Below are positions 15,138-61,698 of a stretch of 64,000 nt of DNA, piece by piece. Source of the stretch: Armatimonadota bacterium (GTDB lineage Bacteria; Armatimonadota; Zipacnadia; Zipacnadales; JABUFB01). Below the pieces are notes generated by a model. It did no database searches and was not told where the DNA came from. It was given only the letters and a program-made list of their open reading frames with translations. Every line of letters starts with the position of its first letter. Within the stretch, counting starts at the first letter, position 1. Where the stretch lies: assembly GCA_013314775.1 (NCBI GenBank), contig JABUFB010000006.1, positions 248,001 to 312,000 on the forward strand, given 5' to 3'. The position numbers were made by a program, and so were the translations under genes.

Positions 15138-15389
15138 CTATGTTCTCCTGCGAATGACGGCGGTTACGGGGTGTCTCTGTCGCGCCGTTGGCGCTCTTGG
15201 CTCTCTTGGCGATCCTCTCTGTAGAGGGGTTTACGCCCTTGGAACCGACGCGCCTTTCTCGCCCCCGATCCCCGAAGAGGCGTCCGACTGGACGACGCTG
15301 AGCGCCGGAATACGCGGCCGGTGCCAAGCCTCCGAAGGGGCGGCAGAACTCCTCTCCCGCCGATCAGAAACCAAGACCCGTAGCACCCC
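15138..15389. other. Gap between gyrA and gyrB
   Basis: No gene is seen. Near 15331-15352 the sequence CTCCGAAGGGGCGGCAGAA resembles the third hairpin of the dispersed repeat family found at 20919 and 61284, so this may be a decayed copy. Confidence 0.4.
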
Positions 15390-18962: not shown

Positions 18963-19018
18963 GCCCCGGGTTGAAACCCGTGGCTAGAGGCCTGCGGCCG
19001 GGCGTCCTGCCGGACGCG
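18963..19018. repeat. Dispersed three-hairpin repeat, family 1
   Basis: Begins GCCCCGGGTTGAAACCCG and continues with a GGCC-containing second hairpin and a GCGTCCTGCCGGACGC third hairpin. The same order of three hairpins recurs at 27861, 29788 and 29922 and in the 79-bp array at 20242. Flanking it are short palindromes (GACCGGGACGGTCGG at 18917 and near 19059; GTCGAGCGTCCCGCTCGAC at 19022). No gene is present between 18906 and 19099. Confidence 0.7.
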
Positions 19019-19099: not shown

Positions 19100-20074
19100 T
19101 TACTCCAAAGGATCCATCACCCGCGCCTTCATGAACTTCTGCACCGCTACATCGGCGTATGGCGACCGCCGCAGGATCACCGCCCGGTTGATCTTGTCCC
19201 CGACCCTGATGGCGTCCACCACTTCCATGCCCTCGATGCAATGCCCGAAGACCGTGTGTATTCCGTCCAGGTGTCGGCAGGGCACATGACAGATGAAGAA
19301 CTGGCTGCCGCCCGTATTCGGTTCCGATGTCTTGGCCATGGACAGACTTCCCCGGAAGTGGCGCAGGCCCCGGTCAGCCTCATCCGGGATGGTATATCCG
19401 GGGCCGCCGCAGCCATTGCCCAGCGGGTCGCCGCCCTGGATCATGAAATCCGCAATGACCCGGTGGAAGGTGAGGCCGTCGTAATACCCGTGGCTCACGA
19501 GGTCCAGGAAATTGCCCACCGCAACCGGGGTCTTCTGGTCGAACAGGTCCAGGTAGATCTTTCCGCGGTCGGTGTCGAGCCGCACCACGGAACCGGTTGC
19601 CCGGTCGATGATGCGCTGCTCCGCCTCGGCGAGAAGCCGGATGACTACCCGCCGCGTTCCAATCTGCCACGTGACCGATTCGGCGCTGTCCTCGACTGCC
19701 TGCACCTCACGGCCCGCGAGCGCCAGCAGTTCTCGCGCCGGCGCCTGGAGCCTGTCTCCGATGTACGCAGGCGCGACAGGCAGCTCGGTCTTCCGGCTCT
19801 GGCCGTCAGGCGCGCGGAACTCCACCGCGGTCTCGCCGATGGTGAGCGTCATTGCTCCCGCCGCGTCGGTGAGGGTGATAGCGTCACTGGCCACATCCCA
19901 CGTGACCGCGAAGCCCAATGGCTTGAACAGGTCGCCCACGGGCGCCAGCACACAGCTTTCGGCCCGGAAGCCCGTGAGTTCCAGGGGGGCATCCTGCGCG
20001 GCGGCCATGACCGGCGCCAGCGCGATGAGAATAATCGCCAGAATACCGCGTTTCACTGCCCGCTTCCCTCTCAA
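19100..20074 (-). CDS. Secreted cyclophilin-type peptidyl-prolyl isomerase with N-terminal copper-amine-oxidase-type domain
   Basis: A 324-residue exported protein. Residues 1-26 form a signal peptide (KRGILAIILIALAPVMAAAQ). Residues 30-140 resemble the copper-amine-oxidase N-terminal domain common in envelope proteins (LFKPLGFAVTWDVASDAITL). From about 165 a cyclophilin domain follows, with the signature segments FHRVIADFMIQGGDPLGNG and SQFFICHV. Such enzymes catalyse prolyl cis-trans isomerisation during folding outside the cytoplasm. The fusion is unusual. A truncated gene remnant lies just upstream. Confidence 0.88.
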   Translation of the reverse strand: MRGKRAVKRGILAIILIALAPVMAAAQDAPLELTGFRAESCVLAPVGDLFKPLGFAVTWDVASDAITLTDAAGAMTLTIGETAVEFRAPDGQSRKTELPVAPAYIGDRLQAPARELLALAGREVQAVEDSAESVTWQIGTRRVVIRLLAEAEQRIIDRATGSVVRLDTDRGKIYLDLFDQKTPVAVGNFLDLVSHGYYDGLTFHRVIADFMIQGGDPLGNGCGGPGYTIPDEADRGLRHFRGSLSMAKTSEPNTGGSQFFICHVPCRHLDGIHTVFGHCIEGMEVVDAIRVGDKINRAVILRRSPYADVAVQKFMKARVMDPLE

Positions 20075-20081
20075 CTCAGAA

Positions 20082-20240
20082 TCACTGCCCCGCGCTCTCG
20101 GGGATTAGCAGAATATAGCCCAGATTGGCCCGGCGTTCCAGCGTGGACAGCCGCAAGCGATGAACCCCCGCGGATAGCCTCAGCGAGATGGGCTGCCCGG
20201 TTTCATCCAGGAAGGATAACACTTTCCACTCCGCGGGAGT
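20082..20240 (-). pseudogene. C-terminal remnant of a carbohydrate-binding or beta-sandwich protein
   Basis: On the minus strand 52 codons read like the end of a beta-sandwich domain: SFLDETGQPISLRLSAGVHR followed by LRLSTLERRANLGYILLIPE and a stop. The pattern (strand, 'LSAGVHRLRLSTLER', strand) is typical of C-terminal carbohydrate-binding modules. Upstream the frame runs straight into the 79-bp tandem repeat, whose translation is repetitive and not protein-like, so the 5' part of the gene is missing. Family assignment is tentative; the remnant status follows from the abrupt junction at 20241. Confidence 0.5.
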
Positions 20241-20241
20241 T

Positions 20242-20835
20242 GCCCCGCGCTGAAGCATGGGGCTGTGGGCCTTCGGCCGTCCGTCCCCCGGACGAGGAGG
20301 CAGGTCGGGTGTCGTCGGAGGCCCCGCGCTGAAGCACGGGGCTGGGGGCCTTCGGCCGTCCGTCCTCCGGACGAGGAGGCAGGTCGGGTGTCGCGAGATG
20401 CCCCGCGTTGAAGCACGGGGCTGTGGGTCATGGGCCGTCCGTTCTCCGGACGAGAAGGCAGGTCGGGTGTCGTCGGAGGCCCCGCGCTGAAGCACGGGGC
20501 TGGGGGCCTTCGGCCGTCCGTCCCCCGGACGAGGAGGCAGGTCGGGTGTCGCGAGATGCCCCGCGCTGAAGCACGGAGCTGTGGGTCTTCGGCCGTCCGT
20601 CCCCCGGACGAGGAGGCAGGTCGGGTGTCGCGAGATGCCCCGCGTTGAAGCACGGGGCTGTGGGCCTTCGGCCGTCCGTCCCCCGGACGAGGAGGCAGGT
20701 CGGGTGTCGCGAGATGCCCCGCGCTGAAGCACGGGGCTGGGGGTCAGGGGCCGTCCGTTCTCCGGACGAGGAGGCAGGTCGGGTGTCGCGAGATGCCCCG
20801 CGTTGAAGCACGGGGCTGTGGGTCAGGGGCCGTCC
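20242..20835. repeat. 79-bp tandem repeat array, 7.5 units
   Basis: Units begin at 20242, 20321, 20400, 20479, 20558, 20637, 20716 and 20795 (the last cut after 41 bases), so the period is exactly 79. Each unit contains three inverted repeats: GCCCCG...CGGGGC, GGCCTTCGGCC and CGTCCG...CGGACG, then the near-constant tail GGCAGGTCGGGTGTCG. Variation is patchy: units 3 and 7 share one variant of the middle block (TCAxGGG with GTTCTCC), and the last seven bases are either TCGGAG- or CGAGAT-type. Long open frames here are repeat translations. Confidence 0.95.
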
Positions 20836-20918
20836 TCCGCCAGGGGCACCGGGTTCGGGGGATGCGTGCCGGTTGAGGCCGAATTCGCGTTCCGCGCGCC
20901 CTTCGCCCTGAGTCATCA

Positions 20919-21037
20919 CCCCACAGCCCGCGGAGCGGGCGGCAGCCTATAGCCACGGGTGGAGTGGAGCGAAGCGGAACGGAACCCGTGGACTCGGCCT
21001 ACCCCGGATCGCGTGAGCCCCCGAAGGGAGCGGCAGA
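20919..21037. repeat. Dispersed multi-hairpin repeat, family 2, copy A
   Basis: Holds CCCGCGGAGCGGG, a long hairpin with arms CCACGGGT (20953) and ACCCGTGG (20984) enclosing GGAGTGGAGCGAAGCG, and a third element GCCCCCGAAGGGAGCGGCAG. A near-identical copy lies at 61284-61400 and a shorter one at 30040-30070. Confidence 0.8.
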
Positions 21038-21330
21038 GATGATGAGCGTGGCGAGTGGCTGTGCGTTCGCCGTTCAGAGGCTGCGGGCCGCGTCGCAGGC
21101 TGTGAGGTGAAGGCAGCCCACTTTCCGCAGCCCGGCGGGCCTGAAAAAGGAGACCGTACCCCGACGCGACCGAGCCCACCTGGTTCCGGGGAAGGCACCC
21201 GTCCTCCCCCCGGAACGTTTGAGGGCCCCACGGCGTTTTGGTATACTGGAGCATATCGACCCGGCTTCACATTCCGTGGGCCGGGGTTTTTCGGTTGCCT
21301 ACCATTCTACGAACCGGAGCAGCAAGGGGA
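21038..21330. other. Non-coding gap before the lptD-like gene
   Basis: No gene is seen in these 293 bases. They include the promoter at 21219 and, in the transcribed leader, a short CCGGC/GCCGG hairpin (about 21259-21282) followed by GGTTTTT. Confidence 0.5.
21219..21247 (+). promoter_or_regulatory. Sigma-70-type promoter for the lptD-like gene and secA
   Basis: TTGAGG and TATACT with a 17-base spacer, about 85 bases before the lptD-like start codon. Confidence 0.65.
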
Positions 21331-23025
21331 ATGAGACTGACTTCAGCATTGCTCTGGGCGGGCTTCCTCCTGCTTGTCCAATCGGGCGCCATGGTTGCCG
21401 ATGCGGCGGACACGAAGAAGAAATCCAATCCGGCGGAGGAGGAGCCAATCACTCTCACGCTGGATGGCGACCGTGTCACCTACAGCGCGGACAGGAAGCG
21501 CGCTACCGTGTCCGGCAATGCCCGCATCTGGGTGCGCATGCCCAACTTCGGCGAAGGCGCCACTCTCGTTGAGGCAGACGAGATCATCGCCGACCTCGAG
21601 AAGGGAACCATACAGGTTCCGGGGCAGGCGCGTCTGCTTGTGGGGCCCGCGCTCATGGTCGGGCGTGACCTGGCCATTAATGCCCCGGCAAGGGAGTTTT
21701 CGCTCAAGGACACCGAGGGTTACGGCGCCATCCCGCCGATTGAGGGTTCACGCTACACGGAGCCCGGCAGGGTGTACTTCAAGGGCAAGGGCGTGGTGAA
21801 GCAGGGCGACATCACTAATATCCTTCACGCCCGGATGACCACCTGCCCCAAGGATAATCCAGACTTCGCAATCCTCGCAAAACGCATCAAATACGATCCG
21901 GCGAACGGAAGGGTCATCATCTACGGGGCGAAGCTGAGGCTGTACGGCGTCACCATCCCGCTTGTGCCCTGGATCCGCACGGGCATCGGCGGCGGTGGAA
22001 CAGGCGAGCCGTACACGCTGGGCATGCCCGGCTACAACAGTCTGGACGGGATCAACGTGCCCTTCGCCGTGCGCATGACTCCCGTGGGCGAGGCCTACAA
22101 CGCGGCGATCGTGGGGAGCCTGACCGCAAAATCCGGCATCATCGGCCGCGCCTTCGTAGAACACGAGCGCGGACCGTGGGACTTCGACTTCGGTGTCGCA
22201 AGGCGTCTGAGAATGGTGGACGACGTGACCGATGCCATCGCCGTGGACCAGTTTCCCGAAGTCGGGGCGACGTACTGGTTCACGCCCCGCAAGGGCTGCG
22301 ACAATGAGCTGAAACTCGATCTCGAGGCCGGCTACTACCGGGAGCGCCTCGAGCGCCGGGACGACATTCGGGTCAACCGCCCGCGCGTGGATGCCTGGCG
22401 CAGCCATGCGACGCTGACCTACACCGCGAACGCCTGCAATTACCAGAACCGCGAGGGCGACTGGTACGGAGCGGCGGCGCGCATCAGCAATTACTCTACC
22501 GACGAGACCTACACGGATCTCGAAGCATTCGCGGGACTGGGTGGGCCGATCACCGACAATCTGCGGGGCGATGTGACACTCCGGCACCATTTCATTGGCG
22601 GCACCACGCCTTTCCTGTTCGACGACGTAGATATTCAGACCGAGCTTGCTACGGGCCTTGAGTGGGATGTGGATGACCGCTGGAAACTGGACGGGTGGAC
22701 GCGCTACGACCTGGACGAGGGCGACATGAAGGACTATCAGGTGGGCGTCTCCTATCGCGCCGGGTGTCTCACGTGGGGGCTGTACTACCGGGACGTGAAC
22801 AACGGCATCGGCCTGCGGGTCGACCTGACCGGGATCACCGGGGGCACCGCACCCCTGGGCCGGCGCTCCCGGCTGGAGAAGCAGATGGAGGCCAGGGGCC
22901 TGAGCGTGACGCCGATGGCCTCGAGGCCTGGCGGCAAGCTCAAGATCGACGGTGACAAATACGCGCCCGCAACTGCTGCACCGCCGCAGCCCCAGGCCCC
23001 CGCGGAACCAAAGGAGACACAGTAA
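21331..23025 (+). CDS. LPS-assembly OstA/LptD-like outer membrane protein
   Basis: A 564-residue exported protein that points to a lipopolysaccharide-type outer membrane. A signal peptide (SALLWAGFLLLVQSGAMVAD) is followed by an OstA/LptA-like beta-jellyroll region (LDGDRVTYSADRKRATVSGN, about 40-60, and VEADEIIADLEKGTI). The long C-terminal part has alternating strands rich in Tyr/Arg and paired acidic residues, as in a beta barrel. It is shorter than proteobacterial LptD. The C-terminal 30 residues are Pro/Ala-rich. secA begins two bases after its stop, so the two are probably co-transcribed. Confidence 0.78.
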   Translation: MRLTSALLWAGFLLLVQSGAMVADAADTKKKSNPAEEEPITLTLDGDRVTYSADRKRATVSGNARIWVRMPNFGEGATLVEADEIIADLEKGTIQVPGQARLLVGPALMVGRDLAINAPAREFSLKDTEGYGAIPPIEGSRYTEPGRVYFKGKGVVKQGDITNILHARMTTCPKDNPDFAILAKRIKYDPANGRVIIYGAKLRLYGVTIPLVPWIRTGIGGGGTGEPYTLGMPGYNSLDGINVPFAVRMTPVGEAYNAAIVGSLTAKSGIIGRAFVEHERGPWDFDFGVARRLRMVDDVTDAIAVDQFPEVGATYWFTPRKGCDNELKLDLEAGYYRERLERRDDIRVNRPRVDAWRSHATLTYTANACNYQNREGDWYGAAARISNYSTDETYTDLEAFAGLGGPITDNLRGDVTLRHHFIGGTTPFLFDDVDIQTELATGLEWDVDDRWKLDGWTRYDLDEGDMKDYQVGVSYRAGCLTWGLYYRDVNNGIGLRVDLTGITGGTAPLGRRSRLEKQMEARGLSVTPMASRPGGKLKIDGDKYAPATAAPPQPQAPAEPKETQ

Positions 23026-27860: not shown

Positions 27861-27920
27861 GCCCCGGGTTGAAACCCTGGGCTGTGGGCCTTCGGCCAAT
27901 CGTCCTAACGGACGAGAAGG
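27861..27920. repeat. Dispersed three-hairpin repeat, family 1
   Basis: GCCCCGGGTTGAAACCCTGG, then GGGCCTTCGGCC, then CGTCCTAACGGACG: the same three-hairpin order as at 18963, 29788, 29922 and the 79-bp array. The rest of the 27855-28095 gap shows no gene. Confidence 0.7.
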
Positions 27921-29780: not shown

Positions 29781-29876
29781 CGTCGGTGCCCCGGGTTGAA
29801 ACCCCGGGGCTAGGGGCCTTCGGCCGGGCGTCCTGAGGGACGCGAAAGCCGAGAAGATTGCCGACCGGGATGGTCG
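29781..29876. repeat. 96-bp direct repeat copy 1 with family 1 three-hairpin core
   Basis: The core GCCCCGGGTTGAAACCCCGG starts at 29788, followed by GGCCTTCGGCC and GCGTCCTGAGGGACGC. It is repeated at 29915 with four differences over 96 bases, an offset of 134 bases. Confidence 0.8.
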
Positions 29877-29914: not shown

Positions 29915-30010
29915 CGTCGGTGCCCCGGGTTGAAACCCCGGGGCTAGGGGCCTTCGGCCGGGCGTCCTGCCGGACGCGAAAGCCGAGAAGATTGCCCACC
30001 GGGACGGTCG
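29915..30010. repeat. 96-bp direct repeat copy 2 with family 1 three-hairpin core
   Basis: Core from 29922. It ends with a CACCGGGACGGTCG palindrome. One of the four differences from copy 1 restores pairing in the third hairpin (CCTGCCGG against CCTGAGGG context). Confidence 0.8.
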
Positions 30011-60879: not shown

Positions 60880-61698
60880 GCTGAGACATCTCCCGGAAGG
60901 AGATTTCTGCCGACACGGGTGATGTTCAGCGCTGCCCTGCAAAGCACCTTCAGGGCTGCAAGACACAGGCCGCAGGGAACCGCCGGAGGCCTCCGGCCGT
61001 GTGAAGGCGACTTTCAGTTCCACAGGCATCTGCGCGTCATCTGTCGCAGTCCCGCACTTGGCTGGACTTACCGGGATCATCTGCTCTCCCAGTCAGGCAG
61101 CTGGGCATCATGTCATCGCTGGACCAACCATGTTCGGGACCCGTCGAAGTGAGGCGCTCTCTTTGTTGGGCATGAGTTCCGCGGGCTGAGCGTTTCCAAG
61201 CCTACCGAGATTGGGCGGTCTCCCTGTCCGGAGTCAGTTCCACTGGCTCGGAGCGTGCAGGAGTCTCGCTGCCGGGCCTTTTGCCCCATAGCCCGCGCAA
61301 CGGGCGGCAGCTTATAGCCACGGGTGGAGTGGAGCGAAGCGAAAGGGAACCCGTGGGTTCCGGCCTCATCGTGATACTGAGCCCCCGAACGTGGGCGGCA
61401 CAATGCGGGAGGCGCGCTTGTGTCACTCCCTTCAGGGGCTCTTGGGCCTTTATGTGGCGCCGGTACCCAGGGGCTGCGTCCCGCCTCGCGGTCCTTACCC
61501 CTGGCTAGCCTTGTGCTCCCTGCTTCGCGGGCTTTGAGGCTACCGCAACGACCCGAGGCATTGCTGCGCGTACTTTACGAGGGGATCGTGCCGGGCCGGC
61601 ACGACCCCCACCCGCTTTTCGCGGTCAGATTCTCCTGTCAGGTAGTCGTTGCGGCAACGTCAGAGGATGTGCTAACATGATAGACGGACGATGGCTGT
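60880..61698. other. Non-coding region with family 2 repeat
   Basis: Over 800 bases with no supported gene. The family 2 repeat occupies 61284-61400; further hairpins follow (ACCCAGGGGC...TTACCCCTGGCT, about 61467-61506, and GTGCCGGGCCGGCAC near 61588). Confidence 0.6.
61284..61400. repeat. Dispersed multi-hairpin repeat, family 2, copy B
   Basis: Same order as copy A at 20919: CCCGCGCAACGGG, the CCACGGGT...ACCCGTGG hairpin enclosing GGAGTGGAGCGAAGCG, then GCCCCCGAACGTGGGCGGCA. The central 35 bases are nearly identical between the two copies. Confidence 0.8.

Follow-up and report, generated by a model that had tools for sequence, protein, structure and literature searches.

The 79-bp tandem array in this 64-kb stretch of DNA (the window, whose coordinates are used below unless another contig is named) is probably a cluster of REP-like elements, spread by a single-strand DNA transposase and amplified in place by recombination. 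As a phenomenon the array is ordinary, and its interest lies in the link to a transposase subclass that had been reported as REP-less. This reading is built on the copy number of the repeat, its extragenic location, its core and spacer architecture, its mosaic variation, the presence of a transposase gene amid the same repeats, and a pairing of repeat and transposase that is specific to the host.

The array comprises seven full units and a final 41 bp cut at 20835, and successive unit starts are spaced by exactly 79 bp, as an earlier reading of the DNA (the sequence-only reading) had claimed. TRF finds it as the sole array of the 64-kb window (20237-20822, period 79, 7.4 copies, 90% matches, score 965). 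Its units are the following:

20242..20320, + strand: unit 1, core H1-H2-H3 at 20242-20294, spacer to 20320, tail TCGGAG
20321..20399, + strand: unit 2, tail CGAGAT
20400..20478, + strand: unit 3, middle variant GTCATGGGCC / GTTCTC, tail TCGGAG
20479..20557, + strand: unit 4, one difference from unit 2
20558..20636, + strand: unit 5, H1 with one broken pair
20637..20715, + strand: unit 6
20716..20794, + strand: unit 7, middle variant GTCAGGGGCC / GTTCTC
20795..20835, + strand: unit 8, truncated to H1 and H2, lacking H3 and spacer

The layout is thus head-to-tail and core-to-core, with eight cores (the last truncated) and seven spacers. Fifteen positions vary, and they do so as a mosaic across the units, units 2 and 4 differing by a single base. 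The middle variant said to be common to units 3 and 7 is indeed a shared block, but the two copies are not identical (GTCATGGG versus GTCAGGGG), and unit 8 has the form of unit 7. Likewise, the described alternation of two tails holds over units 1-4 (TCGGAG, CGAGAT, TCGGAG, CGAGAT) and not over units 5-7, which all end in CGAGAT. The 15-site mosaic, the near identity of units 2 and 4, and spacers that are homogeneous within an array and different between arrays (see below) all support the proposal of recent unit duplication or gene conversion.

The array lies between two divergent genes:

19100..20074, - strand: cyclophilin-type peptidyl-prolyl isomerase (PPIase) with a Cu-amine-oxidase-N1 domain (Pfam PF00160, E 2.2e-45; PF07833), the array being in its upstream region
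21238..23025, + strand: protein with weak similarity to LptA/LptD, its gene divergent from that of the PPIase (LptD_N at E 0.052 only, below the cut-off)

This divergent intergenic position, and the hairpins themselves, would suit a structured RNA or leader that regulates the PPIase or the LptA-like gene. We consider such a role very improbable, since no Rfam match was found anywhere in the window, the array contains no terminator-like site, its folding energy is within what its composition predicts and the same core is found in many other places. The lack of a terminator-like site also rules out a terminator or attenuator, and a CRISPR array is excluded by spacers that are near-identical within the array, not unrelated. 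A protein-coding origin was rejected as well: three long minus-strand ORFs cross the array without any Pfam match, and as 79 is not a multiple of 3 the frame rotates from unit to unit. These ORFs (216, 157 and 163 aa, window 20082-20919) are by-products of a GC-rich repeat and could be mis-annotated as genes. Among the relatives, the contig of the congener stops inside the PPIase gene, and synteny at the PPIase/LptA-like junction is broken in the same-family genomes. A second dispersed repeat follows the array at 20919-21035 (CCACGGGTGG..AACCCGTGG, with a GAGCCCCCGAAGGG hairpin); it has a further copy at 61284-61400 and partial copies in L035, L037, L039, L040, L041 and L043.

Searching the whole assembly with the unit returned 117 matches, nearly all intergenic. 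An absence of other copies in the genome, which the sequence-only reading had named among the outcomes that would refute it, is thus not what we find. What that reading had missed is that the 79-bp unit is not the conserved element. The conserved part is a core of ~54 bp, H1-H2-H3, while the other ~25 bp form a spacer that each array has for itself. With an nhmmer profile we retrieved 143 cores of ~54 bp in the fetched regions. Only 4 of the 143 overlap coding-like ORFs, as called by a heuristic on GC by codon position, though 74% of the fetched DNA is coding-like; these figures describe fetched regions only, which were picked for holding the repeat. Sixteen arrays of at least three cores were found, each with its own spacer and its own period (about 56 to 113 bp), and spacers are near-identical within an array and different between arrays. 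Four single dispersed cores lie in the window:

18963..19016, + strand: single core, flanked by mutY and the PPIase gene, which converge (nhmmer)
27861..27914, + strand: single core between convergent genes
29788..29842, + strand: single core (profile match)
29922..29976, + strand: single core (profile match)

Could the array be a plain minisatellite, with a 79-bp unit that owes both its origin and its expansion to slippage or unequal crossing-over, and with no more than a chance link to a transposase? The exact period, the homogeneous spacer and the mosaic variants are products of recombination, just as this explanation requires. However, the core occurs free of this spacer throughout the genome, both singly and in arrays that have different spacers, and a transposase gene lies between copies of this repeat. 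Recombination accounts for the array but not for the scattering of cores, and we judge a plain minisatellite unlikely.

Several contigs terminate in or beside these repeats (C14 and C21 at their ends, C19, C23 and C30 at their starts, C35 at its end), so that the assembled numbers of units in arrays may be unreliable. On the 34-kb contig C23, the loci L049 and L050 hold a very dense mix of cores of the type seen here, repeats of a second type (the C16 type described below) and 13-bp ladders (TCAACCCGGGGCA), together with composite repeats of about 181-215 bp.

In the 79-bp unit, H1 reads GCCCCG-C-GC-TGAA-GC-A-CGGGGC, H2 GGCC-TTC-GGCC and H3 CGTCC-nnn-GGACG. All three inverted repeats, described earlier as kept by every unit, are present in all the full units and incomplete in unit 8, which has no H3. 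Nearly all stem substitutions in the array lead to G.T wobbles, and the sole newly broken H1 pair is in unit 5. Single units fold no better than shuffled sequence of equal GC-rich composition would lead one to expect (z = -1.0 and -1.6), and the case for structure therefore rests on conservation across loci and species. Compensatory changes, which had been proposed as a check, are indeed seen within the genome, in H1 only (pair counts by a custom script and RNAalifold): among 41 distinct cores, 9 have TA in place of CG at pair 9-14, and 9 have G-C in place of the C.A mismatch at pair 7-16. None of 2000 column shuffles matched the observed pairing, a lenient control as the sequences are related. 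H2 and H3 are nearly invariant within this genome and thus uninformative on covariation; compensatory change in H3 appears only between species, in a Chthonomonadaceae comparison given below.

Two proteins of the genome match PF01797 (Y1_Tnp), encoded by single-copy genes on contigs C9 and C16. The C9 gene, which lies outside the window, encodes a Y1 (HUH) transposase and is bracketed by arrays of the very repeat that forms our array; its nearest copies, at 151919 (-) and 152467 (+), are inverted around the gene. On either side of the C16 gene stands another repeat, CCACCAGC-TGAC-GCTGGTGG, which has hairpins of the GCCCC type and 44 matches in the same genome. The two proteins (147 and 161 aa) share the tyrosine motif Y---Q--HH (YIAMQEEHH in P0001, YIDRQEEHH in P0002), DHVH and WQ, and the HUH (DHVH) and Tyr regions of P0001 align with solved IS200 transposases. 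Both score above the NF033573 cut-off for IS200/IS605 TnpA, and neither reaches the NF047646 REP_Tyr_transpos cut-off. In the tree, whose root is arbitrary and many of whose inner forks are weakly supported, the C16 protein groups with the Bacteroidota (Dyadobacter) members in a clade of good support, the C9 protein falls outside this clade among other Y---Q--HH proteins, and the IS200 reference sits on its own long branch with one other protein. The frame of the C9 transposase (L042 5995-6438, -) has no ATG, GTG or TTG before the conserved N-terminus; the gene may be decayed or may use an unusual start, possibly ATT or CTG.

The scores above the IS200/IS605 cut-off and the Y---Q motif in both proteins would also fit repeats that are MITEs, that is, internally deleted remnants of ordinary IS200/IS605 elements. 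This we regard as very unlikely: each transposase gene is present once, against dozens to more than 100 copies of the repeats, the arrays around the single gene are BIME-like, and for the enzymes' subclass, 1.2, a lack of IS properties has been reported (PMC6006769). Multi-copy, near-identical full elements, as in IS200/IS605 class 1.1, were not found in the genome, whose two Y1 genes are of different subtypes.

The association of repeat and transposase extends to other genomes. The same repeat was found on both flanks (E <= 1e-5) at 19 of 25 Y---Q--HH loci, against none in a set of 200 random pseudo-genes of 400 bp. Among the 16 PPIase loci that served as controls two were also positive, with stretches of 322 and 184 bp at the flank edges that are 100% identical; we attribute both to truncated loci whose flanks overlap. 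Two genes from Dyadobacter and one from Oligosphaera lacked shared flanks. For the C9 repeat there are 54 matches in the genome that carries the gene and 6 in the congener; two genomes of the same family have none, and one of these two lacks any Y1 gene. The congener holds its 6 copies, yet its best Y1 gene is of the C16 type. The C16 repeat, with its 44 copies at home, is found 2-3 times in two relatives. In three related genomes, repeats beside a related transposase are likewise multi-copy in their own hosts (16 matches in G011, 51 in G057 and 34 in G050) and few or absent in the other genomes searched. A flanking repeat in one Acidobacteria genome, however, has 5 matches only, mostly beside the gene.

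The nearest named transposase comes from another member of the Armatimonadota (Chthonomonadaceae, L053) and is 46% identical to the C9 type. It carries one three-hairpin unit per side, in inverted orientation, and its H1, GACGGG-C-AC-TAAA-GT-A-CCCGTC, has the same design of 6 bp, C.A mismatch, 2 bp and TRAA loop. The letters of the H1 stem differ and the pairing is kept; H3 is CCGCCC/GGGCGG instead of CGTCC/GGACG. A split of loop type by transposase clade (TGAA in C9-like, GNNA/GTGA in C16-like) was considered and is only a trend, with exceptions at L061 and L110. In one relative, G002 (L133, G002:C1044 5814-6239), a C16-like transposase and its repeats occupy the gyrB-gyrA gap, and in a second, G001 (L132, G001:C371 191-682), they lie beyond the 3' end of gyrB; no transposase gene of this kind is present between gyrB and gyrA in the window (15138-15389).

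How would the array have formed? The mobile unit would be the ~54-bp three-hairpin core. The C9 TnpA, a Y1/HUH enzyme like those of subclass 1.2, probably recognises single-stranded H1 and cuts beside it, so that cores would be seeded into intergenic regions, as is thought for the E. coli RAYT/TnpA-REP and its REPs. Two cores landing close to each other would trap private local DNA, which becomes the spacer, and unequal recombination or replication slippage between the cores would then multiply core and spacer into an array with a core at both ends, gene conversion keeping the units alike. The core-to-core layout, the private spacers and the mosaic variants point to growth by exchange between nearby direct cores. 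We infer recognition, cleavage, mobilisation, the order of these events and any benefit to the host, and the action of a C9-type enzyme on H1 and the seeding of cores are proposed by analogy. Of the three functions that had been suggested for the array (a DNA-binding or nucleoid site, a structured RNA, a transposition substrate), the last is favoured over the other two by the Y1 gene lying inside arrays of the same repeat.

The first of these suggestions has a precedent in enterobacteria, for whose REP/BIME sequences binding of IHF, gyrase and Pol I has been reported (PMC2817692). The cores could similarly be binding sites for gyrase, a nucleoid protein or Pol I, like the BIMEs of E. coli, and the host could keep the array for that purpose, in line with its extragenic location. 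Nevertheless, the variable copy number and the spacers particular to each array look like those of a mobile, recombining element, and we find a host-used site quite unlikely as the origin of the array; host use could be secondary to its spread by a transposase and not an alternative to it.

Pairs of repeat and transposase are known already, and the closest system is the REPtron (REP/BIME with RAYT/TnpA-REP; Nunvar 2010, PMC2817692; Corneloup 2021, PMC8266576). As there, we find abundant extragenic, imperfect GC-rich palindromes (117 matches here, REPs usually exceeding 100 copies per genome), single-copy Y1 HUH genes bracketed by repeats, with inverted copies at the gene and clusters, a genome-specific pairing of repeat and transposase, and a mismatch within the stem. 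The TnpA-REP of E. coli binds single-stranded REP in a manner that depends on GTAG and on a bulge in the stem, and has CT as its cleavage site (PMC8266576). In contrast to canonical REPtrons, whose enzymes are of class 2 with Y---NP, the transposases here have Y---Q--HH, and the GT(A/G)G head is rare: on the reverse strand, where the consensus is NYAG, 21 of the 140 copies scored have GTA before the stem G, and the rest have other N(T/C)A. Moreover, the unit has three hairpins, and the array is head-to-tail, not alternating. The tyrosine motif and the head together rule out a canonical REP/RAYT pair: the system is REP-like, not canonical REP.

Two other groups resemble it. TnpA-Y1 class 3 (PMC6006769) has a tyrosine motif like that of IS200 and atypical hairpins in many copies, about 600 of them in Solibacter, and is excluded by its motifs, Y----Q and NHVH with a CnGA foot versus Y---Q--HH and DHVH here. 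TIRtrons/TIRYT (Di Nocera 2013, PMC3733652) likewise have Y1 genes with longer, sometimes double-palindromic, inverted flanks that can cluster. Most belong to subclass 2.1 and have HTH domains at the C-terminus as well as a GGGGWSAS motif, features not found here; in the aligned cores GGGG[AT][CG]A[CG] is absent, GGGG being followed by C or G, never A/T, and membership is ruled out by this motif.

The wider question is how REPs spread, and the published biochemistry considered here concerns class 2 RAYTs. A Y1 subclass nearer to true IS200 and yet REPtron-like would be an intermediate in which recognition of mismatched hairpins could be tested, and would help decide between a single and a repeated origin of REP systems. 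The present reading also accounts for a large, poorly annotated class of repeats in uncultured bacteria, which are a source of spurious ORFs and coincide with assembly breaks. Tentatively, and with slightly more doubt than belief, we would extend this to the Y---Q--HH enzymes of subclass 1.2 as a whole, as a separate and widespread REP-like system with multi-hairpin units and a repeat population for each transposase, arisen beside the class 2 RAYTs, so that domestication into REP systems would have happened more than once.

Subclass 1.2 of TnpA-Y1 was listed as 'no' for REP, generally without terminal structures and mostly in Cyanobacteria and Bacteroidetes (Quentin 2018, PMC6006769). The enzymes described here agree with it in Y---Q--HH, WQ, DH[IV]H, a length of ~150 aa (~148) and low copy number, and Dyadobacter members stand in the clade of the C16 protein. 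They differ from its description in that most of the members examined here are flanked by repeats, which in several genomes are present in many copies.
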